A program made the position numbers and the translations under genes. The notes under the pieces are model-generated. The model saw nothing but the letters and a program-made list of their open reading frames with translations, was not told the DNA's origin and made no database searches. DNA of 64,000 nucleotides from Impatiens glandulifera (Eukaryota; Streptophyta; Magnoliopsida; Ericales; Balsaminaceae), in the NCBI RefSeq assembly GCF_907164915.1, contig NC_061862.1, positions 127,729,641 to 127,793,640 on the forward strand. Direction: 5' to 3'. Shown here piece after piece: positions 35,503-61,071 of this stretch (the first letter of the stretch is position 1; each line of letters opens with the position of its first letter).

Positions 35503-37280
35503 TGTTAGAAAATAATTGTTAGAACTTATGAAAAATTTAATAAATAGATAAAACAAAGTTCAAATATATATGTTAAACTGTTAAGTTATATCAAGTATAT
35601 TAATTGGTATAAATATAACAAGAAGGTAATGTAACGTAGTGGGAAGCTGAGCAAAATACCGAAATCTCTATGTAGGCAAGATCGGTTCGGTAGTTCGACT
35701 TCGGTTCGAAGTGGAGTTCGGTCAATCGGAGTTCAGTCAACCGGTTCAGTCAACAAGAGTTTACTCAACCGGTTCTGTCAACCGGAGTTCAGTCAACCGG
35801 TTCGGTCAACAAGAGTTCAGTCAACCGGTTCAGTCAACCGAAGTTCAGTCGACCGGTTCGGTCAACCAGAGTTCAGTCAACCGGTTCAGTCAACCGGAGT
35901 TCAGTCAACCAGTTCGGTCAACCAGAGTTCAGTCAAACAGTTCACTCAACCGGTTCGGTCAAACTACACTTAATGAAGCATGAGCTCCGGTCATTTAATA
36001 GCTCTCAGCTCTGGCTCATAAATACCTTCAGCATTCTCAGGTTTGAGATAAAATTCGGACAGGTTCAACCTTTCGTGCAGAAATTAGGACAGGTTCAACC
36101 TTTGTGCAGAAATCCGGACAGGTTAAACTTTGGTGCAGAAATCCAGACAGGTTTAACCTATGTGCAAAAATCTGGACAGGTTCAAGTTCAGAACCGGTTG
36201 AGTTGTAAACCGAAAGTGTCCGACTAGTTCAATCCATTGAAAATCCTAAGAGCTACGTACATCTTCAACGGGCAGATTATTCAAAAGATATGAATATCTT
36301 AAAGATAACATGTTAAGACAAATAAAATATTCCTTGGGAATATGTAAAAGTAGAAACCATGCATGGGGCAAGATAATGATTAAAATATTCCTTGAGAATA
36401 TGTAAGAGAAGAAACCAGGCATGGGGCAAGATAATGATTACAATATTCCTTGGGAATATGTAAGAGAGAAATACGACCGGCTTATGCATGTCTGCCATGT
36501 GTCCAAACTGGTTTATGCATGTCTGCCATGTGTCAACCGGCACAACTTCCAGTGACCAATCTCCTGGAGAGTGAAAGGATGACCGTTGTCATCTTTTCAC
36601 TATAAAAGGAATCTGAATCATTTCAAGAAATAAAAACCCTCGCGCGAACACGTAAATACGCGTGAGATCTATACGAAAAAGGTTATTCAAGAGAGAAGAA
36701 ACAGAAAACGAAAGATCTTACGCATAAGTGATTGAAATTCTAAAAGCAGTTTGTGTATTGTGTGTGTATTTTAATATTAAGTAAAATTGTAGTGTATTAC
36801 ATCATTGTGAGTGGTGTAACCGACGAGTAGTGATTAAGACTCATTCGGCATTGTGTGAGTGTTGTAACATTCAAGTTAGTGAAAATCCTTCTCATCATTT
36901 GAGAAGAAGGGGTGACGTAGGAGAGTTTGCTCTGAACATCCATAAAAAATCTTGTCTTGTGTTATTTTCTTTATTTTCGGCTTACTCACTCTAAACCGAA
37001 CTATCACTTACTTCAAACCGAACCGATCCATTTCTCCATTCTAACCGACTCCTTATAATACTCATCCAAATCAAACTTTGAGTGTTGCTTCAAGCTGAAA
37101 TAGACATTTCCGCCCTTGAACCCAGTTCAAGAGTCTGTGACAGTTTGTGCAGTGTTAAGAAGCGGTTTAGTCTCTAACCGGACTATCACCAACTAGTGTG
37201 TGTGTATTGTTGTGGTGTTGTAAACATCCTCCCTTTAAAACCGGAACCCCGGTCCTCTAAGGGCGATCCCGATCCTAACA
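35503..37280 (+). repeat. 3' LTR of element B
   Basis: Same modules as the 5' LTR: minisatellites at 35720-35965, 36050-36195 and 36325-36465, palindrome 36578-36593, TATA box about 36601, R stem-loop 36886-36945, end GATCCTAACA. It is followed by TTCAT, a mutated copy of the target TGCAT. Confidence 0.9.
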
Positions 37281-39222
37281 TTCATCTTAGAAGCACACTG
37301 CCAAAAAGTATGACAGTAGTAGATAGAAAAGGAAAATCTACTGTCAAGGAAATCACTAATGAGTGAAGGCTAGACAGATATTCTTTCTGCAATACTTTCC
37401 AACATGCAAGCCCAAAATGTGATTTGGCTAAGGAAGAAGATCAGAAAATTCATAATAATCAGAAAGTAAAGATGCAAGAAATCGATACCAATGTGCCTAT
37501 TTTTAAAGAGCAAAATGTGGTTTAAAAATAGGAAACAGAAGATAAAGAAAATTATGTACAAGAAGAAAGCAATACGAAATCTCTATGTAGGAAAGATCGG
37601 TTCGGTAGTTCGACTTCGGTTCGAAGTGGAGTTCGTTCAACCGGAGTTCAATCAACCGGTTCGGTCAACAAGAGTTCAGTCAACCGGTTCGGTCAACAAG
37701 AGTTTAGTCAACCGGTTCTGTCAACAAGAGTTCAGTCAACCGGTTCGGTCAACCGGAGTTTAGTCAACCGGTTCGGTCAACCAGAGTTCAGTCAACCGGT
37801 TCGGTCAACCAGAGTTCAGTCAACCGGTTCAGTCAATCGGAGTTCAGTCAACCGGTTCGGTCAACCGGAGTTCATTCAAACAGTTCAGTCCACCAGTTCG
37901 GTCAAACGACACTTAATGAAGCATGAGCTCCGGTCATTTAATCGCTCTCAGCTCCGGCTCATAAATACCTTCAGCATTCTTAGGTTTGAGATAAAATCCG
38001 GACAGGTTCAACCTTCGTGTAAAATTCAGGACAGGTTCAGCCTTTATGCAGAAATCCGGACAGGTTCAACCTTTGTGCAGAAATCCGGACAGGTTCAACT
38101 TTGGTGCAGAAATCCGTACAGGTTCAAGTTCAGGACCGGTTGAGTTGCAAACCGAAAGTGTTCGACTAGTTCAATCCATTGAAAATCCTAAGAGCTACGT
38201 ACATCTTCAACGGGCAGATTATTCAAAAGATATGAATATCTTGAAGATAACGTGTTAAGACAAACAAAATATTCCTTGGGAATATGTAAAAGTAGAAACC
38301 AAGCATGGGGCAAGATAATGATTACAATATTCCTTGGGAATATGTAAGAGAAGAAACCAGGCATGGGGCATGATAATGATTACAATATTCCTTAGGAATA
38401 TGTAAGAGAGAAAAACGATCGGCTTATGCATGTCTTCCATGTGTCCAAACTGGTTTATGCATGTCTGCCATGTGTCAACCGGCACAGCATCCAGCGACCA
38501 ATCTCCTGGAGAGAGAAAAATTTACCGTTGTCATCTTTTCACTATAAAAGGAATCTGAATCATTTCAAAAATAAAAACCCTCGCGCGAACACATAAATAC
38601 GCATGAGATCTATACGAAAAAGCTTATTTAAGAGAGAAGAAACAGAAAACAAAAGATCTTACGCATAAGTGATTGAAATTCTAAAAGTAGTTTATGTATT
38701 GTGTGTGTATTTTACTATTGAGTAAATGTGTAGTGTATTACATCATTGTGAGTGGTGTAACCGACGAGTAGTGATTAAGACTCGTTCGGCATTGTGTGAG
38801 TGTTGTAACATTCAAGTTAGTGAAAATCCTTCTCATCATCTGAGAAGAAGGGGTGACGTAGGAGAGTTTGCTCCGAACATCCATAAAAAATCTTGTCTTG
38901 TGTTATTTTCTTTATTTCCGGCTTACTCACTCTAAACCGAACTATCACTTACTTCAAACCAAACTGATTCATTTCTCCATTCTAACCGACTCCTTATAAA
39001 CCCCATCCAAATCAAACTTTGAGTGTTGCTTTAAATTGAAATAGACATTTCCGCCCTTGAACCCAGTTCATGAGTTTGTGACAGTTTGTGCAGTGTTAAG
39101 AAGTAGTTTTAGTCTCTAACCGGACAATCACCAACCAGTGTGTGTGTATTGTTGTGGTGTTGTAAGCGTTCTCCATTTAAAACCGGAACCCCGGTCCTCC
39201 AAGGGCGATCCCGATCCTAACA
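37281..39222 (+). repeat. Second copy of a 1.94 kb tandem duplication (LINE piece plus partial LTR)
   Basis: 37281-37579 repeats the LINE sequence found at 39223-39523; 37580-39222 repeats the 3' LTR from about 35664 to 37280. The junction GCAATACGAAATCTCTATG joins LINE 'ATACGAAG' to LTR 'ACCGAAATC' through a shared CGAA. So a unit from within the 3' LTR into the LINE was duplicated head to tail after element B had inserted. Confidence 0.9.
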
Positions 39223-42865: not shown

Positions 42866-44347
42866 TTATGTTATCAAAACTTCTAGATAAACATACCAAA
42901 TTTTTCATACAAATTTTTTCTTTCAAAACTCTCTCATAAAATTAAACCATTTTTAATCGGACAATAAATATAAGCTCTTTAAATCGGCCAACGATTGCAG
43001 GGTTTTAAATATGTAACTTAAATAATCAAAAATGGAGAAATTGTTAGATAAATTAGATAGTTAATTAATAAGTAATTAACTATCTAAAGAACTTAATCAA
43101 ACTCAACCTTTTGTGCAGGAAAAGCAAAGAGCGGTCACATTCTCAAATTGGCCGGTCAAACCGATATCATAGAAGCAACACAAACCGGAACTCCCAAAAT
43201 TAATCCATCTTATAAGTTTCAGAAGAAGACCGGTTCGTCTGAAATTCAGGATCAGTGAATTTTTTCTTAAAGATCGGTTCCCTCTCCTTGGCAGTAGGAC
43301 CGGTCAACCGGTCAAAGCAACAAACCGATATGATGTCCGGTCAAGCTCGTCCCACATAGCTAAAGGAAGGTGAAGAAATCAATGGTATCCCCTAATGATG
43401 ACTTCTCCATCAATCATCCTGTCTTCTTCTCTATCTCGACGGGGTTGGTTCAATTCCTGGAAATTCTAAATGACCGTACAATTCTTACGGGAAGATTAAT
43501 CAAGATCAAATCAAAGATATGGAACTGTTGGAAGTTTCCATTTTGTTGCAATAAGTTCTCTTTGGGAATAGGCAGAAGGAGATTTTCAAATATGCAGACT
43601 GTGTTATTTCCTATTTGATACAAGTCTGTTGATAGACTGTAAACTGTAGAAGACTGCCAAAGTGAACAGATATACCTATTTTGGTATAAGTCCAAAAGCA
43701 GCCTCCAAGGAGCAAGAATATGTCCAACCGACCAGCTGTTAAACTCAATAAAAAATAAATGGCCGGCTGTATTGTTTCTTGGGAAGCATCAAGCGCATTT
43801 AATGCATTTCAGCTTCTTTTGACTAACCAATCAGATTCAAGAATTATCTTGCAGGTATCCGTTGAAAGAAAAATATGATTGTTGTCATATTTCCATTATA
43901 AAAGGAGAAGCTGATGAACAAAAGCAAGGTTACAAGTGAAATCACAATTATAGAACAGTCTTTCAGAGAGCTACAAAAGGCTATTAAGTCTACTATTCTA
44001 CATTTCAATTTGACATATTATAAAGTGTGATTGAATATTCTTAGTGAATATCCTTCTCAAGGTTTGAGAAGAAGGGGTGACGTAGGAGTTTTATCTCCGA
44101 ACATCCATAAATTTTGTGTTGTGTTCTTCCTTTATTCCATTCATCCTTATTATCCAATACGTGTGTGTTGTTTCAAGTTGAAACAAACTACTTACGCACT
44201 TGAACTCTGTTCAAAAAGTTTGTGACAACTTGTGTAGTGTTGAGACCGGTACTAATTGCTAACCGGATTAGTACCAACCATTGTGAGTGTGTATGCGTTC
44301 TCCTTTAGCCGGACCCCGGTCTTCTATCGGCGATCCCGATCCTATAA
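42866..44347 (+). mobile_element. Element D, 3' end only (copy A: internal end plus LTR)
   Basis: 42866-43041 is the last part of the internal region (AATTGGCC / TCGGCCAACGATTGCAGG words and a weak purine tract AAAATGGAGAAAT); the LTR runs 43042-44347 (TGTTAGATAAATTAGATAG to GATCCTATAA). It duplicates 55845-57419. Copy A has lost about 86 bp before TTTGACATATT. LTR modules present: ATATGATTGTTGTCATAT (43873-43890), TATAAAAGG (43907-43915), R stem-loop (44050-44110). Confidence 0.8.
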
Positions 44348-45181
44348 AAAACAACACATTTTATTTGATAATTCAGTGCCTTGGTTCCCTTAAGCATTTC
44401 CACAAACAACTTAATGGAAATAACAATCATACTCAAGTACTCAACCCAAACCGAGATCCACTAACAGAGAACAAGTAGTCCAATTAAATAAACATACCAA
44501 ACAGTGGATATACACATATGAACATTAGACAAACCCTAATGAAAATACCCAAAATGAAGGAAACTAACCATCTTCGGTCTTCACCATTCGCCTTTAGACG
44601 ATTCTCGACAAATTTTGTACGAGCTTTGGTGCGGGCTTGTTTTGGGGCCACGTTGTTGAAAGAGAGATGTGCACCGATCACAAAGAGGGAGGCTACGGTA
44701 ACAATACTACTACATACATTCATCGTCAATCCAATTAACATAAATTGTGTATCCAAGTCTAATTTTAGTAATAGAGTGTTAGATGATAATCCATAGGACG
44801 AAAGACAAACCGACCGACCTATCACAACTTTCTTTAGAGGAGTTTTGTAGATGATAATTCATAGGAAGGAGATGAAGTCCCAATTAGAGTGAAAATAGTT
44901 GTTGAGATAGAGGAAGCCGATGGATGACGAAGGTCTCAAGGAAAATAAGGAGATATATGTGGGAACTAAAATTATGGACGAATGAAGGTAGGACTGTTTC
45001 CACGGAATTTTTGACTCCCAAACATTATCCACATAGTTTTTGACGCTCAAATATGTTATTTTATTTTATATTATTTATAAATTAATTTTATATATTATAT
45101 ATATTTTTGTGTTTAAAATTATTTGATTTTATTTATTTTATTATTTAAGGAAGATTATATTTTATATTTATATAAATTAAG
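44348..45181. repeat. Segment X, copy A, right of LTR D
   Basis: Near-identical to 57420-58334. In both copies X starts exactly at the end of a D LTR (AAAACAACACATTTTATTTG), so LTR plus X were duplicated together. Copy A breaks off at 45181, where element E begins. X holds the gene fragment at 44569-44825. Confidence 0.85.
44569..44825 (-). pseudogene. Exon of an unidentified membrane-protein gene, copy A
   Basis: On the minus strand the frame encodes a hydrophobic segment FMLIGLTMNVCSSIVTVASL and FVIG, then LSFNNVAPKQARTKARTKF and VENRLKANGEDRRW, a basic tail. It ends at a splice donor G|GTTAGT (44568-44563). One membrane helix followed by a charged tail is all I can say; I do not recognise the family. 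The reading frame has a stop 16 codons upstream of 44825. The copy at 57642-57907 differs by a few codons and an extra QK in the basic part. Confidence 0.45.
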
Positions 45182-45186
45182 TAGTC

Positions 45187-46494
45187 ATGCGTGCTCTTCC
45201 AAGGGAATGGGACATAAAGACTATGGCAATGAGAGAATCCAAGGATCTGAATAAGATCTCTCTCTTCGATCTCTTCGCTGACCTCAAGGCCTATGAGTTC
45301 GAGCTGAACTGTAGGATGGAAGAAGATCAACCCTCGTCCGTTATTATTGCCAAGGCGTTGGTGATTGCTGAAGAGCCACCAACTTCTCCGGACGTGAAGA
45401 TGGCAGCTCAGAAGCTGAGCAGCGATGCCATGTCTCTCATTGTGAAGAAGTTTGGCGACTTCATGAAGAAGAGCAACTCTAACTCAAACTCTTCAAATTC
45501 TAATGATAATAGAAAATCTAAAGCTAATGTTACTTGTTTTAATTGTGGTATTAAAGGTCATTATGCATCGGAATACCGGAAGCAAAAGCGTGAAGATGCC
45601 AAGGAAGACGGAAAAGAGCTGAAGGCTCTTATGGCCGGTGACGGAAAGAACAGAGGAAGCTGCCGTGGCTCGTACTTCTCATCTAGTGAATGCGATGAAG
45701 AAGACGTGGCTTGCTTCATGGCCAGAGAAGATGAGGAAGGAACTCAGGAAACTGAGGTATTTGATTTCTCCTCCGAAAAGTTTTCAAGGGAACAACTGGT
45801 AACTGCACTAGATGAAATGGTCATCGAGTACAAAAATCTAGCAGAATCTCTAAATGAAACTAAATCTTCATCAGATTTAAATGAACCAAATTTGACTAAA
45901 GAGAAAGAATCACATGCTTTTGAAAAGAAAATTGAAGAAATCTCATTTGAAAATGAGATGCTCAAAGAACAGATTCAAACTCTTTCATCTGAAAACAAAA
46001 GGCTTAACTATGTTGTCTGTGCATGGACAAGGTCTGGTGATGCTGTCAGATATCAAATCAGCATGTTGAAACCTGCTGGATCTAGATCTGGATTGGGATT
46101 TGATAGCAATGATCCTAACCTGTACTGCAAAAAGTCAAAGCCAAATGACAAACTTAAGCCAATAAGTTTTGTCAAAGGAAGTATGACTGACATTGAATCT
46201 GATCATATTCATGAAGAAGTGGCTTTTAAAAATGAAATAGTTTATGTTCCACCAACTGTTAGCTTGCTTAAGAATAAGCTTGAAAAGGCTAATAAGTATG
46301 GTAACTTAAAACCTGACTCTAAGTCAATGAGTTTTAAAAGAAAACCTTCTTCAAAAGTCAAAGGATCAGTGGCTAGCAGGAAGTCATCTGCTAAGTCAAA
46401 ATATTATGCATTAATCACAACACAAAATGGGAAATCCATCAGAATAACTCAAATATGGATTCCTAAGGGACTAATTGATCGAGGACCCAATTGA
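45187..46494 (+). CDS. Copia-type gag, 5'-truncated, 435 codons (element E)
   Basis: The gag polyprotein packages element RNA. Residues 1-75 (MRALPREWDIKTMAMRESKD, then LFADLKAYEFEL) are the end of the UBN2 gag domain. A CCHC-type knuckle follows at about residue 116 (CFNCGIKGHYASEY), with the last cysteine replaced by tyrosine. The C-terminal half is acidic and coiled-coil-like (QLVTALDEMVIEYKNLAESL; IEEISFENEMLKEQIQTLSS), matching the parts kept in elements A and B. It ends QIWIPKGLIDRGPN, stop, where the protease would begin. The N-terminal third of gag is cut off at the junction with segment X; the ATG used here is internal to the original frame. Confidence 0.75.
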   Translation: MRALPREWDIKTMAMRESKDLNKISLFDLFADLKAYEFELNCRMEEDQPSSVIIAKALVIAEEPPTSPDVKMAAQKLSSDAMSLIVKKFGDFMKKSNSNSNSSNSNDNRKSKANVTCFNCGIKGHYASEYRKQKREDAKEDGKELKALMAGDGKNRGSCRGSYFSSSECDEEDVACFMAREDEEGTQETEVFDFSSEKFSREQLVTALDEMVIEYKNLAESLNETKSSSDLNEPNLTKEKESHAFEKKIEEISFENEMLKEQIQTLSSENKRLNYVVCAWTRSGDAVRYQISMLKPAGSRSGLGFDSNDPNLYCKKSKPNDKLKPISFVKGSMTDIESDHIHEEVAFKNEIVYVPPTVSLLKNKLEKANKYGNLKPDSKSMSFKRKPSSKVKGSVASRKSSAKSKYYALITTQNGKSIRITQIWIPKGLIDRGPN

Positions 46495-46779
46495 GTATGG
46501 GTACCAAGATTTATAAATAGTTTATTTTGTAGGTGATACAGGAGGATAGCTGGAAGGAAGCTAGAAGAGTACTCATTTGAGTAGACAGCTTGGAAGATCA
46601 ACAATGCCACTTGCCATTCTGGAAGATTAATTGTTTTTTATTTGTTAAAAATATTTTTGGTCTTTGGACCACAAAAATTGTTTATAAAACTCTTTTGTCC
46701 ATATTCATTTTTTTTGAGAAGGAAAATTTCTTTGGAATTAAAGATATTCTCTAGACGAATATCTTTAATCGGTCTAATT

Positions 46780-47110
46780 AGATAAGGAGGTCTAAAAGAA
46801 AAGTATGTATTTAGACGTGTTTTTGTTCACAATACATACATCTAAGTCTATATGTTGAGATTTTATATCCACGCAATTAGACGGACACGTCTAATAGACG
46901 TTAGGCGTTTTTACGTCTTGAGCAAAAGGATGCTCACGTCTAATAAACACACGTCTAACACGTGGTGTTTATGCGGAATTAAACGTACACGTCTAATAAA
47001 CATTAGACGGATTTGTTATAAACACGGAATTAGACGTATGCGTCTAATACACTCATCCGTCTAATAGACGCTGTGTTATTTGTGAAGTAAGAAAAACGTC
47101 TAACTACGTG
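46780..47110. repeat. TTAGACG/CGTCTAA repeats upstream of the extra gene of element E
   Basis: At least nine copies of CGTCTAA or TTAGACG in both orientations, e.g. AATTAGACGGACACGTCTAA and TTAGACGTATGCGTCTAA. The same word builds the LTR minisatellites of this family, here inside the element between gag and the extra gene. Confidence 0.75.
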
Positions 47111-47343
47111 CCGATTAGACTGATCAGGGACAAATGTCACACGCTAAGAGCTATCTACTTTTCCCGCTCAAAATATCGAACAGTCATCTCTTAATAACAT
47201 GAAGACACGTGTCTATCAAGTTTAGAGAAAATGACTAATATACCATCATTTTTAATGATTACTTCTTGAAAAAGGACGTCTAACATTTATTAATGGGCCA
47301 TAGCCCTAGAATAGACGGTTATTCAGTATTTCCATATTTCATC

Positions 47344-47350
47344 TATATAA
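47344..47350 (+). promoter_or_regulatory. Internal promoter of the extra gene of element E
   Basis: TATATAA lies 121 bp before the ATG at 47471. The interval is CT- and AT-rich (CTTTCAATCTCTCG, TTTCTCTCACTAAAACTCTC), typical of plant 5' leaders. The gene therefore looks able to be transcribed on its own and not only from the LTR. Inference from sequence context. Confidence 0.5.
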
Positions 47351-47470
47351 GGACATTCCTACATGATTTTGAAAACTTTCAATCTCTCGAAATTTATAAG
47401 AACCCTAGTTTTCTTGCATTTCTCTCACTAAAACTCTCTGAAATATCATATTGATTCATATTCTCTCAAA

Positions 47471-50400
47471 ATGTTGAAGAAAATCACGCTCGGTCACTGT
47501 ACTTTGCAGGTGGACTTTCCATCGGTGTATTCCTTTGATCAGCCGGAGGTGGTGAAGATGTTCCAAACCCTAGAATATTTTGGGTTGAGGAAATATCTGG
47601 GCGGACCGTTCATCTTCTATGAAGATGAAGTTCGCGAGTTCTTCAAAACGGCAGTTATGGTGGATGATTCCATCGTAGCAACTGTTGACGGAAAGGAGAT
47701 CTCTTTTGATGAAGCGGTGTATGCGGAGTTCTTTGAACTTCCAACGGAGGGTCATCTGTTCGACCTGGTGCTCTCTTCTGAAGTCATGGAGGAAATGAAG
47801 ACCTCCTTCTCCGCTGACAGTTCTTAGATCCATGTGAATGGATATAAGAAGGTATTCAAACCCCACTTTATTCTCCTAAACGACGTGGTGGCGAAGGCGC
47901 TGCAAGGGAAGTCCGGCTCTTTCAATCTCTATAGTCAAGACCGTTTTGACTATATGTGCGCCATCTCTAAAGGAATCCAAGTAAACTGGGGTCATACCCT
48001 ATTTCAGAATCTATGTTACTCCATCAGCCAGACAAATAAGGAGAGTATCACCTATGCGGCTCAACTGAGCCACCTGTTGAAGTTTTTGGGGGTTCCTGTT
48101 GGTGAACCGGCGCAGATTAACTCTGCAAGAGTTTTTACTGCCTCTACGGTAGCCAGCACTCTGTTGAGGGTGAAGAACAACCTAGAGTTTGCTTCTGGGT
48201 CCTTTAGTTTCCAGACTGATGGAAGGCCTTCCACCCGATCAAAGCCCTTTGCTTCTGTTATGTCAACAGGGGCAAAGAGAACCAGAACTGCGAATGAATC
48301 GGAGGCCAGTTCCTCCAGCATGAAGAGTCCAAGTCAGAAGGACACGGAATCTGTCGATTCAAGGGTGAAGCAAGGTCTAGGCGTACTTGCTGCAACCCCG
48401 ATGACATCATTATCTACTCCCTCAACCTTCTTGAGGAAACCTTCAAGGTCTTGTGCCTCAAAGGAGAAGAAGACAAAGGCGCCCCGCGCGTCTAAATCCG
48501 CTAAGGTAACGTCTTCTAAGTCTTTGGCTTCTGTGCCAAAATTTGTTGTTCCCGAAGTGGAACAAGCTGAATCTGTTTTCTCTCCCTTGAGAGAATCTGC
48601 TGAAGGGCCTGCTGTTGAGTCAGCCGGTCCAAATGTTGAATCTATTAACAGGGCGGAGTCCCCTGTTACTCGATCTGATTAGGTAGCCGCCGGTGCTACA
48701 GAGTCGTCTATACCAGAACAAGGTGTTGTTTCTACCATTGTTGTTGGTGAACCCTTCATTCCTGCTTCCAAGGATTCCTTGGTAGTCGGAAAAATTCTTT
48801 GTAGAGAGCTTCCTGTTGAGCTCTGTTTGAAACCTCAATCGGCCTTCGAACTGTTGCGGGCCAGGAAAGGGACACAAGGAATTGTTATTGGTGAACCAAG
48901 ACCAGCTCCAAAACCTGTAGAGGTTGTTGGAAAATGGAAGTCCATTGCGTTTCAGGATCCTGAGAAGGTATCTGAAGCAAGAGGTATTGTTGATCTCATT
49001 CTGGATCAAATAAAAGTTCTCTCCTCTGAAAAATTAGAAATCTATGATTCCTGGCGTACTGAGAGGCTGTCATCTAAGTACAACGACTCTCTGTCCAATG
49101 CTGCCATATCAAAAGAATGGAAGAAGAGAGTAGCAAATGAGAAGAAGGTCCTGAAGTGGGCAAGAACTTCAGATGTGGGTGAAGCATTAAACAAAAGAGA
49201 ACTGGTGGAAGCTTGCATTCTTGGAAAAGCCCTGTTTCCAATCTATGAAGCCAGGAAAGCAAACTTCAACCCTGACGCAAAAGGAGCTGATGTTGAGGTC
49301 AAAGTGTTAAAGAAGTTGAATGATATCATGGAAATCTATGTTTCTGCTGCTTCCAGATACATTCATGGCGCCGATTGTTCTGGTGCAAAACCGTTTAACG
49401 AAGAAGAGGACATGGACATCCCAAACGCTGATGAATCAGATGCTGTTCTCCTGATCGAATTCGGGAATATTTCTGCCGAAGAGAGACGCATTCAAGATCA
49501 TCCAATTCAAGAGCTTCCTAATAAAGATGGAGAAATGATGAATGTTCAAGAGCCTGAACAAGCTCTTGAGACAAATGTTGAAGAAGTAATCGTGGAAGAT
49601 GTAGTTGAGGAGGCTTCGAAAGCTCCTATTGAAGAAGATGTGCTTGTAACCCCTGTTGCGAGAACATAAGGTTCTCAAGAGAAACTGGCTGAGGTAACTC
49701 AGCCAGAGACCGCAAGAACTAAGGGGGAACCCTCTAGAGAAAAAGGTGATGAAGAAGAAAGTTCCTCGTCTGAGGAGGAACAGGATAAGCAACCAAAGTT
49801 TGTTAAGACCTACCTATTTCCTGATGGTGTTGTGGGAAGTGTTCATGAAAACATAACCACTCCCCGTCACTATTCTGGAAGTTTGCTCAAAAGATTTGAA
49901 AGAGCACAAAGAGAAGTTGGCGATGAAGAAGTTCAAGAGAAAGCGGCTAAGGATGCTGAAGTTAATCAGCCTGAGCAATCCTTGCAGGTTCATACAAACT
50001 TTGAGCCTATTCAAAGTATGGTTGTTGAATCTGAAGAAGTGTCTTGTCACGAAGGTTCATCTGCTGGAGGAAATAAATTGTTAAGATCTATGAGGTCTAT
50101 GCTTTCCTCAATGCAGAAGACTATGCGTCAGTCAATGATTTCCAGGGAAGAGGAAAGAACGAATTTCAGCAACATGTTCAAGATCCTAACTGAGCTGGAT
50201 AAGACCCTGAAGATGAATACTTATGAGACCCATGTCTCGAATGTAAAGTTTTCAAAATTTCAACAGAAAAGCTTCAACCACCAAACTGAAATTTTTGACA
50301 TTGAGAGGCACATCAATGACGAACGCCACAAGGAAACCCTGGATGAACTCAGACTGGTAAAGAATCAGCTGGTAGAAATGCAGGGTTGCATGAACAGAAA

Positions 50401-50815
50401 TGACAATGAACGACAAGCTTTTGCCGAGAACCTTGCCAGAAAGTTTCAAGCAAAGGAAGATGCTTTAGGCAATGCTGAAGGTGCCCAACCTCGACCAAAT
50501 CAAGGTGAGTCTAGCAGGAGGAATGATAGTGTGTCAACCGGGACCAGATCCAGGCGGGCCCCAATCTCTGATGACAATCCTAGGCCAACCAAGAGAGGTG
50601 GTGGTCGAAGTGGTTCTGAGCGTGGTGGTATAAGTGGTGGCGGCCGAGGTAGGCTGTCCAATGTTGATCAAGGTGGACGTGGGAGTGTTGCTGAGCGTGG
50701 AAGAAGATCGAATGCAGGAGGTCGTGGTGGTCGCGGCTATCCTCATTTCATGAACATGCTTCCCGGGCAAGAAATGAGTCCAACCGATCCTCGAGTAAAA
50801 AGGGAAGAACAATGA
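47471..50815 (+). pseudogene. Long extra gene of element E, 1,114 codons with three in-frame stops
   Basis: One frame runs from ATG 47471 to TGA 50813-50815, interrupted only by TAG 47825-47827, TAG 48680-48682 and TAA 49667-49669 (codons 119, 404, 733). Residues 1-240 form a compact N-terminal domain (MLKKITLGHCTLQVDFPSVY; LLNDVVAKALQGKSGSFNLY; GIQVNWGHTLFQNLCYSI). Residues 250-400 are Ser/Lys/Thr-rich. A helical block follows at 437-640 (VDLILDQIKVLSSEKLEIYD; WKKRVANEKKVLKWARTSDV). Acidic linkers lead to a coiled coil at about 864-1020 (SMRSMLSSMQKTMRQSM) and an RGG-rich tail at 1041-1098. No gag, pol or envelope motif. I recall similar predicted proteins in repeats of other asterids, unverified. 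Possible roles (RNA binding, chaperone, targeting) are inference. Element D and the CAGACG element carry relatives. Confidence 0.7.
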
Positions 50816-50980: not shown

Positions 50981-50994
50981 AAAAAGGGGGAAAT
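50981..50994 (+). other. Polypurine tract of element E
   Basis: AAAAAGGGGGAAAT, directly before the LTR start TGTTGGGTCAAATT. Confidence 0.8.
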
Positions 50995-53032
50995 TGTTGG
51001 GTCAAATTATTTTGACTAAGTATTGAAATAATTTACCCACTAATATTTTGATGATGAAATAATTTATAAGTCTTGATACAGGTGTATTAAGACAACATGT
51101 TATTAGACTTGGATCTAATGAGGGTTATTAGACCGATTTTGATCTCCATTCGCATAAAATTAGACGCCTGTCTAATGAAATTAGACATGAGTCTAATGGA
51201 ATTAGACGTGAGTCTAATAGAATTAGACGTACAGTCTAACTCACCGGAGTTAGACGTGTAAAGAATTAGATGGGTAGTTTAATGAATACACGGAATTAGA
51301 CGTGAGTCTATTAGAATTAGACGTACAGTCTAACTCATCGGAGTTAGACTTGTAAGTCTAATACACGTGTAAAGAATTAGACGGGTAGTCTAATGAATAC
51401 GCGGAATTAGACGTGAGTCTAATAGAATTAGACGTACAGTCTAACTCATCGGAGTTAGACGTGTAAGTCTAATAGATGTAAAGAATTAGACGGGTTGTCT
51501 AATTAAGTGAAAGTTAGACGTGGGTCTAACTCCTTCAGATTAGTCTGAAGTAGAACCGGAATTAGACGGGGCAGTCTAACTCAGTGGAGTTAGACGTGCT
51601 GGTCTAATGGTTATGATATAATTAGACGGGTTGTCTAATTAAGTGAAAGTTAGACATGGGTCTAACTCCTTCAGATTAGTCTGAAGTAGAACCGGAATTA
51701 GACGGGACAGTCTAACTCAGTGGAGTTAGACGTGCCGGTCTAATGGTTATGATATAATTAGACGGGTTGTATAATTAAGTGAAAGTTAGACGTGGGTCTA
51801 ACTCCTTCAGATTAGTCTGAAGTAGAACCGGAATTAGACGGGGCAGTCTAACTCAGTGGAGTTAGACGTGTCTGTCTAATGGTTATGTTATAATTAGACG
51901 GGTTGTCTAATTAATTGAAAGTTAGACGTGGGTCTAACTCCTTCAGACAAGTCTGAGGTAGAACCGGAATTAGACGTGTAGTCTAACTCAGTGGAGTTAG
52001 ACGTACCCGTCTAATGGTTATGTAAATTAGATGCGAGTCTAATTATATTAGACCAGGCAGTCTAATAGACGTTTTTCATTAGAAGGAGTTGACTTATTTC
52101 ATTAGACTGATTTTCCCAAATCCGTCTTACTGAAATACGTCTAATGCTCTGTTCAAGCAGTACGCTTGAATCTAGCATTTCTCCTACCCACGTGCTATAG
52201 CTGTACCCTACTTCTGCTCCACTTTCCTGTGAAGATTAGTACAACAGCTATATGCATCCAATCAAGGAATGCCACGTAAGGGAATTTTCCTCACATTACC
52301 CGTTTTGCAGTTACATCCCTGATGGAATATTCGGCGCACTACCAGTTCGGTACGGCCACGATCTTTGTGCTTAGAACCTGATGTGTACAATGGAGGCTTT
52401 CCAATGAAAGGGCGCCACGTATTATTCTTGAAGATTCGACCGTTAGCCCCTGCTCAGTATTTAATCAATCCTTAGAGCAACGGACGAAGCAACGACTTTA
52501 TCAATTCAACAAATCTTACGAACAAGCATTCTGATTTTGCAGAGAGAGAATACTCAGTCATCTTGCTTATTGAACCTATTCTGTGAAGCTTCTTTCTGAT
52601 TGTACTGTGTGTAAATCGAGAGAGAGAGCTAAAATCAAAACACCATTAGCTGAGTGATATTCTTCATTTTCTTGTAATTGAACAGAAAGTGTTTTGTTCA
52701 ATAGTGAGCTAAGTGTGTGTGCAAACTGTATTTGATTCTCATCATATAGTGAATCCTTCTGGTGGTTGGAAGAAGAGGTGACGTATGAGAGTTTCTCCGA
52801 ACATCCATAAACAAACTGTTGTGTTCTTCATTTTCTGTCATCTTTTCATATTTCATCTTGTGCTTCAATCCCAAGTAAACAATTCCGCCTTGAATCTGTT
52901 TCAAGTGTTTACACAAGTTTGCGTACAATAGAAAGAGATATTAATCCCTAACAGGATTTTTATCAAACCGTTTTTCATAAGTCTTCATCATTAGCCAGAC
53001 CCCCGTCTCTATTGATAATGCCGATCCTATCA
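50995..53032 (+). repeat. LTR of element E (TTAGACG family)
   Basis: TGTTGGGTCAAATTATTTTG to GATCCTATCA. Contains palindromic minisatellites at 51150-52080, GATTCGACCGTTAGC where other families have the promoter palindrome (52435), the R stem-loop CCTTCTGGTGGTTGGAAGAA followed by GAGGTGACGTATGAGAG (52753-52800) and the U5 hairpin CTTGAATCTGTTTCAAG (52889-52905). A sister LTR is at 61878-63575. Immediately right, ATTTCTAACAAGTG could be a second LTR-end/primer-site remnant. Confidence 0.8.
51150..52080 (+). repeat. Hairpin minisatellites of the element E LTR
   Basis: 51160-51490 has units of GGAATTAGACGTGAGTCTAA and TTAGACGTACAGTCTAACTC. From 51490 four units of about 140 bp follow (ATTAGACGGGTTGTCTAATT, GTTAGACGTGGGTCTAACTC, TTCAGATTAGTCTGAAG, GAGTTAGACGTGCCGGTCTA). 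Nearly every word is an inverted repeat TTAGAC-N6-GTCTAA. Confidence 0.9.
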
Positions 53033-55701
53033 ATTTCTAACAAGTGAACTGATGGAACTCACCGGGAAGAAAAAAAACTTGCGGTTCGAATTTCGGTTTT
53101 TGTGTGACATCGTCTCCAAGGTACTTCAGGCCAGGGGCGGTAAGTTCGATAGCATCACGCGGTTGAAGTTCAAGATGTTGGCCGACATTCTTCTGGATGA
53201 CCGGATAAACTGTGCGAACATTCTATTCGAGATCCTATGCGAGATGGTATCTCCCAAAACCAATCGGTCTTTGGGCTACGCTATGTAGATCGGAAAGGTT
53301 TTGCTTCATCTCAACGTCCCAACCGGGCCAGGTATCATCTTATCTAATAGAAAAATTATAAACTCGGTCAATATCGAGAAAAGTTTTGTTAGATCCGGTA
53401 AGGCTAAAGTGACGAAGGCTAAGGAGCCCAAGGTGAAAGAAACGAAGGAGAAAATCAAGAAAGGTAAATGACCGGTGCCTTTGCAATCGGCTGGTGAGGA
53501 AACCGACAGCGAGGCAACAGAAACCGCTCCCATGCTCTCCAGACCGATAAACCGCGAAGTCACTCCCATCAACATCCAGTCTCGTGTTGAGTCTATCCCC
53601 ACTCCGGTCGAGCCTCAGACTCATGCCGAGTCTATCCCCTCTCCGGTCAATCCACAGACTCGTGTCGAGTCTACGGCCATCACGGATAGCCGATCCAGAT
53701 CCAAGGAAACTTCTATCCCTAAGGTAAATATCCCTATCTCAACTACTATTCTTGTGCCTAGGGATCCTATTACAAAACCGGTTGAGTCTGCAGTTTTAGA
53801 GGCTCAACTGAGAGTTTCATAAATTATTGATGACGTTGTGGAGAAGTCAATCGGTTGGATGAAACCGATGTGACCGGTAAGATTGTTGAGACTGGCCAGA
53901 ATGATGAAACTGACCGGGCAAGTTATGCGAATGAAGTCGATAAGTCGGCCGAACATAATAAAGAAGAAAGAATTATAGCCGAGCAGCCTCCGGTGCATGA
54001 AAGCAGTCATACCGGGAAAGATTAAACCGGTCTAATTAATGAGGAAACTATTCTGACCATTCCAATCCTAAATCTTATTCTAGAAAAGGCGGCTGATACA
54101 ATCATTCCGGATTTTGTTGAAACACCGGATTCTCGTATGGCCAATGCTGAAGCAGAAAAGATTATTGATAATGTCTTCAAGACGGTTGAAGAGAGAGCAT
54201 ATGTATTATCCGACTCTTATTATTCATGGGCAAAAGTAAGATTGAAGGTAAATTTTAAAGACATTCTCCCGGACTGTCCTGAAGAAAGTAAGTGGTCAAC
54301 CTTAGTGTCATTGGAGGAAACTATGCTTGATCTTGTTAAAACCATGTCCGTACCGGTTGCTATGACAAGAACGAACCTGATTGAGGCAAATGCTAAGTTG
54401 AAGGTGTTGTCCTCAGTTATTGATAAAGGAGATCAGGATACTATTCAAGGTGAAGTAGTCGAAATGGATAAGATCGTGCTCAATGCCTTAAAAATAGTTA
54501 AAGAAAACTTAATCGCCGAAATATCCAAGTATGAAGAAACGACCAAAATGGATGAAGAACCGCCTAAATCCACTCCGGTTGAAGAAGACGATATTCACCA
54601 AAAAGAAAAACAACCTGAGAAATCGTGCTACGAGGTCGGCCAATCTTCTAAATTGGTAGGGGCTCCATATCAAACCGGTCAACCGGAATCTCCGATCAAA
54701 TCTCCCGAAGAAAAAGAAGAGAACCGAGATGGGGCAACTGCTACTCCGTCCGCCAATAAATCGGCCAAGACTCCATCGGGTAATTTTTCTAACCGAAGTA
54801 AGTCAAGAGAAGAGAGTTTTCATAAACCGGCTGGAACAGAACTATCTCTTCGCGCCGACTCTCCTCCTCCGATGCAACCTCAATCAATCGGCTCGGTGGT
54901 TCCATTTTCAGAAGAACGCATGAAGTCTAACATGGAGGAAATGATTCGAGAATCCATGGCTCGGGCTTCCTCCACCGACTCTAAGCTTTCACATGTTGAA
55001 GAGGTAACCTCTCAGACTTTTTCATCGGTGAAACTTATTTCTTTACATCTATATGTGCTGATAAAGAACCAAGAGGTTGCAAACGAAGAAAGAATGTCAT
55101 TGGATGAAGAGGCTGCCCGGTAGCTTCAAGCTAATGAGGATGCAAAAGCCAAGGCGTCTGAGTGTGATAACGAGCAGATGGCTCGAAAGCTTCAACATTA
55201 ACTTATTCAAGAGCAAATCGATGAAAAAAGAGAGAAATATACTTCTCCAATTGCCAAAAAGACAAAAGCACAAACCAACAAAAGAAAGAGGGTCCAAGAG
55301 TCGGCAGCAGCAGCTCCACCGGTTGTAAATCTTGCCGCTCGCTCAGAAAACTTGAATCGTGGGGAAGAAGAAGAGAAGGATGGTGAACCCTTGAATCAAA
55401 GAAAATGTTGATCCAGAGCTACCATTCAACCAATCCCAGCAGTACCAATTCAATCTTTTCCTTCCAGTGCTCGATCAGACCGAGGAACTCATGGAGATTC
55501 GGTTGACAATGTTGTTTAGAGTCAAAGAAATCCCACATTCAATATTCATGTTAAACCGACAAGACCCTCACGGTCACCCGACTTTCTTGGTCAACCAACA
55601 AGGAGTTCCCAAATAGTTTTCGATCCTACTGCACCGGAAAGGGGCTTCACAACACGTTACTTCACCGACTTGATCAATAATCCGGATGGAGGCAGCCACT
55701 A
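53033..55701 (+). pseudogene. Extra gene of element D, 5'-truncated and frameshifted
   Basis: Homologous in layout to the gene at 47471. 53052-53288 (RFLCDIVSKVLQARGGKFDS; INCANILFEILCEMV) aligns with the second part of its N-terminal domain (LNDVVAKALQGKSGSFNLYS; VNWGHTLFQNLCYSI). Stops at 53286, 53469 and 53820 and a frameshift before 54137 follow. 54137-55123 is the helical block and linker (EERAYVLSDSYYSWAKVRLK; LVKTMSVPVAMTRTNLIEAN) with a coiled coil near its end. The tail (LQANEDAKAKASECDNEQMA) runs on with stops to TAA 55699-55701. The first 120 or so codons are missing because element E abuts at 53032. Confidence 0.65.
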
Positions 55702-55844: not shown

Positions 55845-56022
55845 ATCAAAAAGGGAGAAATTACTAGATAAACTTACAAATTTTTTCATACAAAATTTTT
55901 TTCTCAAAACTCTCTCCTAAAATTAAACCATTTTCAACCGGCCAATAAATATAAGCTTTTTGAACCGGCCAACGATTGCAGGGTTTTGAATATTTAACTT
56001 AAATAATCAAAAAGAGAGAAAT
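55845..56022 (+). repeat. Duplicated purine-tract module before LTR D (copy B)
   Basis: AAAAAGGGAGAAATTACTAG at 55848-55867 and AAAAAGAGAGAAATTGTTAG at 56009-56028 are two tract-plus-LTR-start copies about 160 bp apart. Between them lie CCGGCCAATAAATATAAGC and CCGGCCAACGATTGCAGG. Elements A and B show the same serial arrangement. Confidence 0.7.
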
Positions 56023-57419
56023 TGTTAGATAAATTAGATAGTTAATTAATAAGTAATTAACTATCTAAAGAACTTAATCAAACTCAACCTTTTGTGTAGG
56101 AAAAGCCAGGAGCGGTCACATTCTAAAATTGGCCGGTCAAACCGATATCATAGAAGTAGCACAAACCGGAACTCCCAAAATTAATCCATCTTATAAGTTT
56201 AAACAGAAGACCGGTTCGGCTTAAATTTAGGATCGATGAACTTTTTCTTAAAGATCGGTTTACTCTCCTTGGCGGTAGGACTGATTAACCGGTCAAATGA
56301 ACAAACCGATATGATGTCCGGTCAAGCTCGCCCCACATAGCTAAAGGAATGTGAAGAAAGCAATGGTATCCCCTAATGATGACTTCTACATCAATCATCA
56401 TGTCTTCTTCTCTATCTCGACGGGGTTGGTTAAATTCTTAGAAAATCATAAATGACCGTACAATCCTAACGGGAAGATTAATCAAGATCATATCAAAGAT
56501 ATGGAACTGCTGGAAGTTTCTATTTCGATGTAATAAGTTCTCTTTGGGAATAGGCAGAAGGAGATTTTCAAATATGCAGACTGTGTTATTTCCTATTTGA
56601 TACAAGTCTGTTGATAGACTGTAAAATGTAGAAGACTGCCAAACTGAAAAGATATGCCTATTTCGGTATAAGTCCAAAACCAGCCTCCAAGGAGCAGGGA
56701 TCTGTCCAACCGACCAGCTGTTAAACTCAATAAAAGACAAACTGGCCGGCTTTATTCTTTCTTGGGAAGCATCAACCGCATTTAATGCATTTCAGCTTCT
56801 TTTGACCAACCAATCAGATTCAAGGATTACCTTGTAGGTATCCGTTGAAAGAGAAATATGATCGTTGTCATATCTCCATTATAAAAGGAGTAGCTGAAGA
56901 ACATAAGCAAGGTTACAAGTGAAGTCACAATTACAGAACAGTCTTTTAGAGAGCTACAAAAGGCTATTAAGTCTACTGTTCTACATTTCAATTTGTTCAA
57001 GAGTATCAAAGTGTATTACAATTCCATTCATTCTGTGTGAGAGTTATAAGTCAATAGCGAGCAGTAAATAAGCCTCGGCTATTTGACATATTGTAAAGTG
57101 TGATTGAATACTTTTAGTGAATATCCTTCGCAAGATTTGAGAAGAATGGTGACGTAAGAGTTTTATCTCCGAACATCCATAAATCTTGTGTTGTGTTCTT
57201 CCTTTATTCTATTCATCCTTATTATCCAATAAGTGTGTGTTGCTTCAAGTTGAAACAAACTACTTTCGCACTTGAACTCGGTTCAAGAAGTTTGTGACAA
57301 CTTGTGTAGTGTTGAGACCAGTATTAATCTCTAACCGGATTAGTATAAACCGTTGTGAGTGTGTAAGCGTTCTCCTTTTGTCGGACCCCGGTCCTTTATC
57401 GGCGATCCCGATCCTATCA
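56023..57419 (+). repeat. 3' LTR of element D (copy B)
   Basis: TGTTAGATAAATTAGATAG to GATCCTATCA, 1,397 bp. Modules: ATATGATCGTTGTCATAT (56856-56873), TATAAAAGG about 56880, R region (57125-57185, here with GAATGGTGACGTAAGAG), U5 hairpin CTTGAACTCGGTTCAAG (57271-57287). No minisatellite. Copy A at 43042-44347 is slightly shorter. Confidence 0.85.
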
Positions 57420-58334
57420 AAAACAACACATTTTATTTGATAATTCAGTGCCTTGGTTCCCTTAAGCATTTCCCCAAATAGGTGAATGGAAATAACAATC
57501 ATACTCAAGTACTTAACCCAAACCGAGATCCACTAACAGTGGACAAGTAGTCCAATTAAATAAACATACCAGACAGTGGATATACACATATGAACATTAG
57601 ACAAACTTTAATGAAAATACCTAAAAATGATGGAAATTAACCATCTTCGGTCTTCACCATTCGCCTTTAGACGATTCTCGACAAATTTTTTACGAGCTTT
57701 GGTGCGGGCTTTTTGTGCTTGTTGTGGGGCCACGTTGTTGAAAGAGAGACGTGCACCGATCACAAAGAGGGAGGCTACGGTAACAATACTACTACATACA
57801 TTCATCGTCAATCCAATTAACATAAAGTGTGTATCCAAGTCTAATTTTAGTAATAGAGTGTTAGATGATAATCCATAGGAAGAAAGACAAATCGACCGAC
57901 CTATCACAACTATCTTTAGAGGAGTTTTGTAGATGGTAATCCATAGAAAGGAGATGAAGTCCCAATTGTAGTGAAAGCAGCGGTTGACATAGAGGAAGCG
58001 CGGGGGGTGATGAAGGTCTCAAGAAAAATGAGGAGATATGTGTGGTTAAATGTGGGAACTAAAATTAGGCGCGAATGAAGGTAAGACTGTTTCCACGGGA
58101 TTTTTGACGCCCCCAACATTATCCACATAGTTTTCTACGCCCAAATATTATCCACTTAGTTTTCGATAACCCAGAGTCTAAGTATTATCCACATAGTTTT
58201 TTAATCTTAAATATGTTATTTTATATTATTTATAAATTAATTTTATATATTATATATCATTTTTGTGTTTAAAATTATTTGATTTTATTTATTTTATTAT
58301 TTAAGGAAGATAATATTTTATATTTATATAAATT
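57420..58334. repeat. Segment X, copy B
   Basis: Second copy of 44348-45181 with about 70 bp extra near 58140-58190. Unlike copy A it continues into the AT-rich sequence leading to the probable right CACTA tip (58334-58890). Confidence 0.85.
57642..57907 (-). pseudogene. Exon of an unidentified membrane-protein gene, copy B
   Basis: Same exon as at 44569-44825: hydrophobic FMLIGLTMNVCSSIVTVASL, then NNVAPQQAQKARTKARKKF and ENRLKANGEDRRW, ending at a weakened donor G|GTTAATT. Slightly longer basic part (QAQKARTKARKK). Function unknown. Confidence 0.45.
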
Positions 58335-59100
58335 AATTAGTTATTATTTAATTTATAATTATATTATATATTATTCACGATTTTGGCTATGATAATATTA
58401 AACATATTATTTATAAATTAATTTTATATACATAATATATTAATTTTAATTTTATTTATATTTATTTTATTATTAAAGTAAGATATTATATATATATAGA
58501 TATTACATATTATCTACGGATTTTGCTACGACAAACTTTTTAAAAAAAAGTTAAAGATAATTATATTTTATTATTTATGTATGTTTTTATTTTTTCTATA
58601 TAAGGTAAAACATAACATTGAATACGGCGTCAAAAATTTCCAGAGGAATTTTCATTTAGTTATTTTTTCACAATTTTTGCTACGTAAATTTATATTTTAA
58701 TTTAGAGATAATTATAGATCATAGATAAATATCTTTGTTTTTGCGACAAACTTTTATTTATTTATTAATATTTGCGATGGTTTATATTTTTTGTGGATTA
58801 AACCGTCGCAATATCCGTCGAATATTTCCGACGTTAAATATACGTCGGTAATTATTCTTCGCTAATTAAATGCTTTTTTTTAATGTAATAACATTCATAT
58901 TTCACGTAATAATAATAATAATAATAAGCTTTTTACTTGTATGAATTTTTTAAATAATTTTAATCTAATCAAATATTATTTTATAGTTTCTTAAAAACAC
59001 TACGCCTAAACACGAATTTGCAATAATTTTGGGTGAGTTTTAAGAAAGTTAATTAGTCAAATTGAAATATTAATTAAGTATAATAAATAAATCCCCAAAG
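58335..59100. other. AT-rich stretch before the 11S promoter
   Basis: Up to about 58890 this carries GTCGCAATAT/GCGACAAA words assigned to the probable CACTA right end. From 58891 to 59100 there is an ATA-repeat (58903-58926) and plain AT-rich DNA. Confidence 0.5.
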
Positions 59101-59382: not shown

Positions 59383-61071
59383 ATGGCTAAAGGAAATACT
59401 CTATTAGCTTTCATCTGTGTCTTTGCATGCATCTCTCTCCTAGCCTCGGCTACCGATGAAAGAAGGCAAAGCCGGTTGACTCAGGCCCAGCAATGTCGTA
59501 TCCAACGGCTCACAGCTTCCCAACCTTCACAGAGGATCGATAACGAAGGTGGTTCGATCGAAATGTGGGAACAGAAGGACGATATGTTCCAATGCGCCGG
59601 CGTAGCAGCTTTTCGTTACACCGTAAAAGCTAACGGACTCTCTCTTCCTCACTACCACCCATCTCCCCGCCTACTCTTCATTGAAAAAGGTAACAGAAAT
59701 TATAAACCTTATATATAATATATATATATATATTATGGATGATGTTATTTTCTGAAAAACAGGTGAGGGTTTGATCAGCATTAATTTCCCGGGATGCCCT
59801 GAGACTTTCGAGTCGGAATCTGAGTCGATGTTCATGGGTAGACAGAGCAGTGACGAAAAGTCGGAGGGTCGTGAAGGAAGAGACTCGCACCAAAAGGTTC
59901 ATCGTGTTCGCAAGGGAGACATCGTTGCTATTCCAAGCGGCGTGGCTTATTGGTGCTTCAACGACGGGACTCAAGATCTTGTAGCCGTCGCAGTAAGCGA
60001 TCTTAACCAAAACGTAAACCAGCTCGACCAGCAGTTCAGAGTAAGTATATCATATCTTCTTTTGAGAATAAAAAAAAAATTCGTCAAGTTTTTATTAGTG
60101 GAATGACTTAATTTCTGTTTCTAGTCGTTCTATATGGCCGGTGGAATGCCAAAACAACAACGACAAACTAGATTTACTGCTCATGAAGCTGAAAAGAAAG
60201 AATACTTCGAGAATATTCTAGAACATTTCGACACGGAGTTGATGGCCGAAGCCCTAGAGATGCCTGTGGAGCTCATGCGAAAGATCCAACAAGGAGAGCA
60301 ATCGAAGAAGGGATTCATCGTTACTGTTCGCGAGGGCATGCGCATGATCAAGCCAGACGAGAGGGAACAACAAAACGGCTTGGAAGAGTCTTCATGATGT
60401 AGCATGAAGATCCGACACAACTTGGAATCTCGCCAACAATCCGACGTCTACTCCCGTCAAGGAGGCCGTCTCTACGTTGTCAACCAGAACAAGCTCCCTC
60501 TTCTCCGCCTCCTCGACATGAGCGCAGAGAAGGGCGAAGTATTCCCGGTAAGTAGTACGAATAATGCTGCCCTAGACTAAAAATAATGATTATGTTGACC
60601 TAAACGAGCTGCGAAGGAAAAGGCCAAGGCCGGCTCTGTATGTAATATTCATTTTTGTCTCCAAAAATACATCATGAATCCACAATTTTATGTATTCAGA
60701 ACGCGATGTACAGCCCAAGTTGGAATATGAACGGACACTCCGTGGTATACGTGACAAAGGGAGAGGCCGAGGTACGCATTGTGGACCAGAGCGGACAAGC
60801 AATAATGAACGAACGCGTGCGCGAAGGAGACATGTTTGTCTGCCCTCAATTCTTCGTGGTTACAAGTCAGGCTGGAAAGGAAGGATTCGAGTGGGTGGCA
60901 TTCAAGACAACTAGCTCTCCGATGAAGAGTCCCTTGGCTGGTTACACTTCGGTGATGAGGGCTATGCCTCTTCAAGTAATTGTTAACTCCTACCAAGTGT
61001 CTACTAGCCAGGCTAAAGATCTCAAGTATAATACTGGCCGACAGACCATGTTTCTCAAACCTAAGGCTTGA
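59383..61071 (+). pseudogene. 11S globulin seed storage gene with premature stop (right copy)
   Basis: Complete four-exon gene: 59383-59689, 59763-60040, 60125-60547, 60700-61071; introns of 73, 84 and 152 bp. Starts MAKGNTLLAFICVFACISLL and ASA, a signal peptide with likely cleavage before TDERR. LTQAQQCRIQRL and FQCAG hold the acidic-chain cysteine pair; FPGCPETF holds the interchain cysteine. In exon 3, TGG (Trp, as in the left copy) is TGA at 60395-60397, so translation stops at codon 286, right after NGLEESS. The whole basic chain, with its interchain cysteine CSMK, is lost although its reading frame is otherwise open to 61071. Other coding changes versus the left copy: N to S (near 59996), S to R (60774), M to V (60856). 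Readthrough would be needed for a 459-residue product; a promoter and polyadenylation signal remain. Confidence 0.93.

Follow-up and report, generated by a model that had tools for sequence, protein, structure and literature searches.

Extra open reading frames (ORFs) lie between pol and the 3' long terminal repeat (LTR) in 74% of SIRE elements, where they fall into 19 groups with little or no similarity; the survey that describes them asks whether these ORFs function (PMC6317226). No function is known to have been proven for the 3' extra ORFs of Sireviruses. Accessory ORFs have also been described in Ty3/gypsy elements, including one with a match to Transposase_32 in an Athila element of sunflower (PMC11728184) and the TRP28 (PF04195) ORFs of Retand elements (PMC11963269). 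We analyzed a stretch of 64,000 nucleotides from Impatiens glandulifera (contig NC_061862.1, positions 127,729,641 to 127,793,640; hereafter the window), in which an LTR retrotransposon, element E, carries gag followed by a long gene and lacks pol. The reading we favor, with a probability of about 0.7, is that the E family is a pol-less derivative of a Sirevirus-like copia lineage in which the third of three extra ORFs (eORF3) would have been kept. A word search of the open-access literature showed no report of pol-less SIRE-like elements with an extra ORF and none of tandem Transposase_32 ORFs in copia elements.

A pol-less element with gag and a second long gene

Element E belongs to a high-copy family of LTR elements of 10-11 kb that hold gag and the long gene and no pol. 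When the genome (654 Mb) was searched with the last 381 codons of the gene, all of the 108 candidates scored, out of 3,782, were matches, with 79-91% identity excluding the window. Ten further copies, picked mainly for long open frames, were compared with the window. In nine of them a 5' LTR, whole or in part, is followed by gag, a spacer of ~1 kb and the gene, which a short linker separates from the 3' LTR, and pol was absent between gag and gene in all nine copies that hold both; the tenth (L019) aligns only from inside the gene through the 3' LTR. A copia-type gag (PF14223) was recognized in copies L013 and L017, with an E-value of 5.5e-24 in one of them. In most copies the LTRs run from TGTTGGG to CCTATCA. 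The primer site is ATTGGTATCAGAGC, and target duplications of 5 bp were seen by eye in six of nine copies (no flanks were printed in two, and the LTR start was not located in one). E thus presents the features of a non-autonomous LTR retrotransposon, namely LTRs, a primer site, a polypurine tract (PPT), target duplications and the absence of pol. The two LTRs of a copy differ by a Kimura two-parameter distance of 0.032-0.052 in eight of nine copies (in L017 over 501 sites) and by 0.12 over 238 sites in the ninth (L023). At a substitution rate of 1.3e-8 per site and year, the eight copies would be about 1.2-2 million years old.

The long gene of the window runs for 1,114 codons in a single frame up to a terminal stop and, as the first-pass annotation had described, is interrupted by three in-frame stops (codons 119, 404 and 733). 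Against these four stops, the other five frames have 31-99 each, and 500 shuffles average 66 and never fall below 39. The gene is fully open in 3 of 17 copies examined. Premature stops, mostly TAG, occur at codons 13, 24, 104 and 187 in two or three copies each, which may reflect either recurrent mutation of methylated CAG sites or common ancestry of the copies.

The element has the primer-site junction of Sireviruses. Their junction of 5' LTR and primer-binding site, CA/ATTGG followed by TATCAGAGC (PMC2829016), is exact in six of the eight E copies in which it was located and has one change in two; it was not located in L017. The bases AT/TG follow the terminal PPT in all eight located copies. 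Compared with the Sirevirus PPT, AGGGGGAG, the octamer AGGGGGAA (7 of 8 letters) occurs in four of these eight copies and in the window, with further changes in the other four. Beyond the junction and the AT/TG site, E shares with the SIRE and Sirevirus elements that bear the 3' extra ORF (eORF-3'F, 'ENV-like') the placing of CpG-rich repeats before the ORF, repeat boxes having been reported near the ENV gene of Sireviruses, and the pol-bearing relatives of E carry their extra genes in the same place 3' of pol (PMC6317226, PMC3414828, PMC2829016). It differs from them in the loss of pol, in relatives with three tandem ORFs, and in that no membrane segment was found. Further Sirevirus marks are several PPT copies before the 3' LTR and palindromic LTR repeats that have a CGG-CCG core, form CpG islands and precede a TATA box. 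In E only the terminal copy of the PPT was seen in the 175-base linker of the window, a CGG-CCG core was not seen in the LTR repeats of E, which are rich in AGACG, and the motif TATAWAD does not occur in the 3' LTR of the window. Judged by these motifs E appears Sirevirus-like, and we do not file it as a member of the Sireviruses.

TR-GAG elements are non-autonomous LTR elements in which gag is the sole gene. E is like them in its LTRs, primer site, PPT, gag and lack of pol, and differs in the second, selected gene of 1,114 codons after gag, so that it is not gag-only. The TRP28 ORFs of Retand likewise form a conserved accessory family, located towards the 3' end in an LTR lineage that has non-autonomous members, but they are antisense, belong to Ty3/gypsy elements and form a different Pfam family (PMC11963269).

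Relation of the long gene to extra ORFs of pol-bearing elements

The N-terminal domain (N-domain) of the open copy L015 matches Transposase_32 (PF20167) with 22.6 bits (E-value 1.1e-4) over profile positions 14-177 of 177, and that of L013 with 17.9 bits, both below Pfam's cut-off of 45 bits. The extra ORF of the sunflower Athila element falls in the same Pfam family and is also an extra ORF of an LTR element, but it has 487 residues and lies in a gypsy element with pol, whereas E is copia and its match is below the cut-off (PMC11728184). A genome search with PF20167 gave 3,707 candidates; 150 were scored, and 43 of these exceeded the cut-off.

Taking 5 kb upstream of two of the scored places (loci L043 and L044), we found at both the 3' part of a copia pol (RVT_2 in L043, E-value 1e-77), two shorter related genes and then the start of a long one. 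The third genes after pol, C2:38887013 and C5:14722438, score 53.0 bits (over the cut-off) and 41.4 bits (under it) for PF20167; the first of the three tandem genes is broken by a stop in L044. A hidden Markov model (HMM) built from the three open E copies and I. glandulifera proteins matches all three genes of the L043 locus (E-values 7e-29, 6e-25 and 4e-33). The third gene has the same order of parts as the gene of E and is 26-27% identical to it, the likeness being weak outside the N-domain (middle part, E-value 0.024). In a tree of N-domains with 12 rows, E, the homologous gene of the neighboring element D and gene 3 stand apart from genes 1 and 2 with support of 96/95, although the program cautioned that gene 1 has long branches and that some rows are only partly filled. 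Profiles and tree together indicate that the tandem genes after pol, a three-gene block seen at two loci, form one superfamily of divergent Transposase_32 proteins and that the long gene of E is related to the third.

The first-pass annotation had noted the long gene where pol should be. That the gene replaced pol is contradicted by the two copia loci, which hold pol and, after it, three tandem genes of the superfamily. The L043 locus was extended by 1.1 kb (L046; the 1.2 kb between L043 and L046 was not read). Here gag ends in VWIPKGLINHGPN-stop and pol continues in another frame to the protease motif. The gag of E ends in IWIPKGLIDRGPN-stop, with the same motif and stop. Both gag proteins align over 305 residues with 31% identity (tblastn E-value 2e-27), and the DNA alignment continues beyond gag into the beginning of pol with a score of 89, the maximum of 300 shuffles being 37. 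The idea of a gag cut short in E was rejected on this common end. With gag kept to its natural end, E would have lost pol together with extra genes 1 and 2, while a relative of the third and the sequence preceding it remain, and we are highly confident that its gene derives from the distal extra ORF of a pol-bearing lineage. The ancestor would have been a Sirevirus-like Ty1/copia lineage with pol followed by three extra ORFs, from which the E family would have lost protease, integrase, reverse transcriptase and RNase H along with the first and second extra ORFs. To move, such a family would depend on pol-bearing relatives that provide pol in trans.

The place of these relatives 3' of pol, which is that of the ENV-like ORFs of Sireviruses, raises the idea of an envelope-like or cell-to-cell movement protein. 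The usual threshold for a membrane segment on the Kyte-Doolittle scale is a mean of 1.6. Neither the three open E copies nor genes 1-3 (gene 3 without its first ~36 codons) show a membrane-like segment, the best 19-residue mean being 0.66-1.27 overall and 0.91-1.18 in the E copies; we dropped this explanation as very improbable. A captured host gene in an unrelated position in other elements, which the first-pass annotation had set against its own proposal, is not what the pol-bearing relatives reveal, as they sit at the same 3' place. Some annotated proteins do join an N-domain of this kind to a plant enzyme (P0005, with a P450), but candidate places in the genome number in the thousands and three tandem relatives follow pol, which speaks against capture and led us to discard it as the least probable of the alternatives. 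Moreover, searches of protein databases returned matches only to predicted I. glandulifera proteins (in one search, among the best 7,996 candidates by shared words). Three annotated I. glandulifera proteins (P0005, P0014 and P0015) consist of a piece of the family joined to another protein, namely a P450, a terpene synthase or an esterase, and are either gene-model fusions or real chimeras.

Selection on the long gene and its possible role

The protein is clearly under purifying selection. Among 16 copies (120 pairs; the partial gene of L019 was left out of this and of the site counts below), the ratio of nonsynonymous to synonymous divergence (dN/dS) of the long gene is 0.249 (range 0.19-0.53), far from the value near 1 across intact copies that had been named beforehand as contrary evidence. 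The two shifted frames of the same copies give 0.878 and 1.314. Constraint varies along the protein, with dN/dS of 0.115 in the N-domain, 0.409 in the linker, 0.196 in the middle domain, 0.433 in the acidic part, 0.177 in the helical part and 0.321 in the tail. Over quartiles of synonymous divergence the ratio drops from 0.305 in the closest pairs to 0.217. For gag, counted like the spacer in the 10 copies that contain it, dN/dS is 0.394, with 0.906 and 0.689 in shifted frames.

Following an approach used for LTR elements (PMC9073684), we also counted nonsynonymous and synonymous variants (N/S) at two-state codons by minor count, as raw numbers and not per site. In the long gene these are 115/54 for singletons, 30/32 for a minor count of two, 13/44 for three to four and 15/48 for five or more. 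The ratio falls from 2.1 in singletons to 0.3 at minor counts of three or more (115/54 versus 28/92, p = 5e-14, taking sites as independent). Shifted frames give ratios of 2.6 and 4.0 for singletons, 3.2 and 2.1 for a count of two, and 6.3-8.3 above two. It has been argued that a fall of N/S with frequency needs products that favor their own copy (PMC9073684); for the long gene this argument is subject to the excess divergence described below. The strong purifying selection, seen against wrong-frame controls, supports the suggestion of the first-pass annotation that the gene benefits the elements, and selection for such a benefit is in our judgment very probable. The eORF3 protein would then favor the copy that made it.

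The region before the gene has features of a promoter. A TATAWAD motif lies at -130 to -80, a range fixed after the first TATA boxes had been noticed, in six of seven gene starts (E in the window and three genes each in L043 and L044); shuffles average 0.36, and none of 2000 reach six. In the window TATATAA starts at -127 from the ATG, which upholds the TATA box noted earlier. The ratio of observed to expected CpG is 1.15 in the spacer and 0.93 in the LTR repeats, compared with 0.48 in gag and 0.56 in the gene. None of 2000 single-base shuffles reach the AGACG/CGTCT palindromes of the spacer, whose repeats are 66-71% similar to the tandem repeats of the LTR. A TATA box after CpG-rich repeats suggests, with fair probability, that the long gene is transcribed from its own promoter.

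These repeats also bear on an alternative by analogy with VANDAL elements, whose anti-silencing proteins are named in PMC11728184. The protein would bind the CpG-rich repeats of the family's LTR and spacer and, as an anti-silencing or transcription factor, keep the copy active. The likeness of the two sets of repeats, their CpG content and the argument that selection of this kind needs cis action all agree with such a role, as does the finding that RGG arginines, the mark of an RNA role, are not specially conserved. No recognized DNA-binding domain is present, however, and structure models are unusable; we regard this alternative as rather unlikely.

The leading candidate role in the reading we favor is that of a nucleic-acid-binding accessory protein, acting on the RNA or the chromatin of the element and not as an envelope; the conserved N-domain, the helical and acidic middle and the basic RGG tail suggest it, and we hold nucleic-acid binding at slightly under even odds. 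The tail itself was described correctly, with 2-4 RGG per copy in 16 copies. RNA packaging by way of this tail lacks specific support: RG arginines are conserved at 0.909 compared with 0.900 in the rest of the tail, so that RGG was dropped as a specially conserved feature, and the tail of the third gene in the pol-bearing element is basic and not RGG-rich. A coiled coil, like a transmembrane segment, is a mark of the ENV-like proteins of Sireviruses; a crude test does not separate the one proposed for the long gene from shuffles, its heptad score being reached by 90, 87 and 31 of 100 shuffles in the three open E copies. By sequence, the best match in the PDB was to a KH domain of far upstream element binding protein 1 (E-value 0.0046, profile positions 408-485), which we take as chance.

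Several observations weigh against the favored reading. The long gene is broken or partial in 14 of 17 copies, and the copies were in part chosen for open frames. In gag of the same copies the fall of N/S with frequency is not significant (91/59 versus 8/8, p = 0.43). Synonymous divergence of the gene is 0.30 when pooled (blocks 0.11-0.46), compared with a total divergence of 0.066 in the spacer and 0.058 in gag of the same copies. Near the putative promoter, the stretch from TATA to ATG diverges by 0.087 compared with the 0.066 of the spacer, and the TATAAGG motif survives unchanged in 8 of 10 copies, which does not exceed what is expected from drift. Pol is split over frames at both L043 and L044. 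Finally, AlphaFold2 models of the N-domain reached mean predicted local distance difference test (pLDDT) scores of only 34.6 and 42.8.

Excess divergence of the gene is also seen in four-fold-site transversions (0.078 versus 0.0245 and 0.0187 in the flanks); singletons are about equally common in the gene and its flanks. Given how much further the gene has diverged than its flanks, some of its variation, and some of the selection on it, may originate outside the pol-less family, and the gene module may have had a longer history than the sequences around it, for example through exchange with other lineages. This divergence and the many broken copies favor a passenger gene, idle in the pol-less family, whose open frame and low dN/dS would have come from pol-bearing relatives by descent or repeated exchange. 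Against it, dN/dS is still 0.305 in the closest quartile of pairs, and the N-domain has no nonsynonymous variants and 23 synonymous ones (0/23) at a minor count of three or more. In most pairs synonymous divergence also varies little over the length of the gene, with heterogeneity at p < 0.001 in 7 of 120, unlike what piecemeal exchange within it would give; mosaic exchange was rejected on this count as the source of the high synonymous divergence, and we consider a passenger gene improbable. The silent-site excess (L009-L034) is greatest in the conserved domains and least in the linker.

A family without pol that keeps gag and one extra ORF, with that ORF under clear purifying selection, constitutes a natural experiment on the function of such ORFs. 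It extends to an accessory gene a puzzle already posed for gag and pol of Sireviruses, that of cis action by LTR elements (PMC9073684), and a profile of Transposase_32 and genes 1-3 could be used to test a common origin of the scattered ORF groups of SIRE. A broader picture, which we put forward as speculation and think unlikely to hold as a whole, is a satellite of gag and one accessory gene that borrows pol, with a Transposase_32-type protein made from its own promoter and acting in cis on the repeats or RNA of the family. The tandem ORFs of pol-bearing elements would be divergent paralogues transcribed separately, and Transposase_32 would be a common root of extra ORFs in Sirevirus-like copia elements and in Athila elements of the gypsy group.

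Element D and other features of the window

The copy of E in the window is truncated at its 5' end and lacks the 5' LTR, the leader and the first ~490 bases of gag. The truncated 5' LTR of element D adjoins the gag of E at 45184-45187; the 3' LTR of E stops at 53032 inside the D gene, which continues towards the 3' LTR of D. Insertion of E into the D gene, with deletion afterwards, would be the simplest reading. Coordinates are collected in Table 1.

Table 1. Features of elements E and D in the window; limits between the parts of the long gene were set by us.
Feature	Position	Strand	Remarks
5' LTR-like repeat of D	42877..45185	+	right end truncated; 91-93% identity to 55858-58341
gag of E	45187..46494	+	5'-truncated; CCHC knuckle (zf-CCHC, E-value 5e-4); ends ..WIPKGLIDRGPN-stop
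Spacer of E	46495..47470	+	pol-start remnant; CpG-rich AGACG/CGTCT repeats (peak 46795-47245); TATATAA at 47344; pyrimidine-rich leader
Long gene of E (relative of eORF3)	47471..50815	+	frame, profile and selection analyses
N-domain	47471-48115	+	
Linker	48116-48778	+	
Middle domain	48779-49450	+	
Acidic part	49451-49990	+	
Helical part	49991-50470	+	
Basic RGG tail	50471-50812	+	
PPT and AT attachment bases	50985..50994	+	AGGGGGAAAT; before 3' LTR
3' LTR of E	50995..53032	+	TGTTGGG...CCTATCA; tandem repeats 51157-52049
Interrupted D gene	53019..55701	+	homologue of long gene; 53033 on; end from first-pass annotation; two collinear profile matches
3' LTR-like repeat of D	55858..58341	+	pairs with 42877-45185

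The kinship of the D gene with the long gene, proposed earlier, is borne out by HMM matches at 53019-53285 (E-value 6e-7) and 54026-55120 (E-value 4e-4) in the same order, and a 365-codon piece of it has 140 matches in the genome. The gene of the CAGACG element is a weaker case, with an E-value of 0.089 and a second, still weaker collinear match. Of the three diverged non-autonomous families that had been proposed, the description is shown for E only, the copy of D in the window having its 5' part deleted.

Two more junctions of LTR and primer site of the Sirevirus type (ATTGGTATCAGAGC and GTGGTATCAGAGC) occur at 11273 and 34097, before other gag-like frames. Positions 1-1689 and 59693-61373 form a pair with 98.6% identity that flanks ~58 kb rich in repeats and resembles, by eye, candidate genes for 11S seed-storage globulins. 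Tandem repeats were found at 61928-62681 (29 bp unit), 28432-29453 (153 bp), 26773-27271 (50 bp) and 35660-38014 (28 bp).

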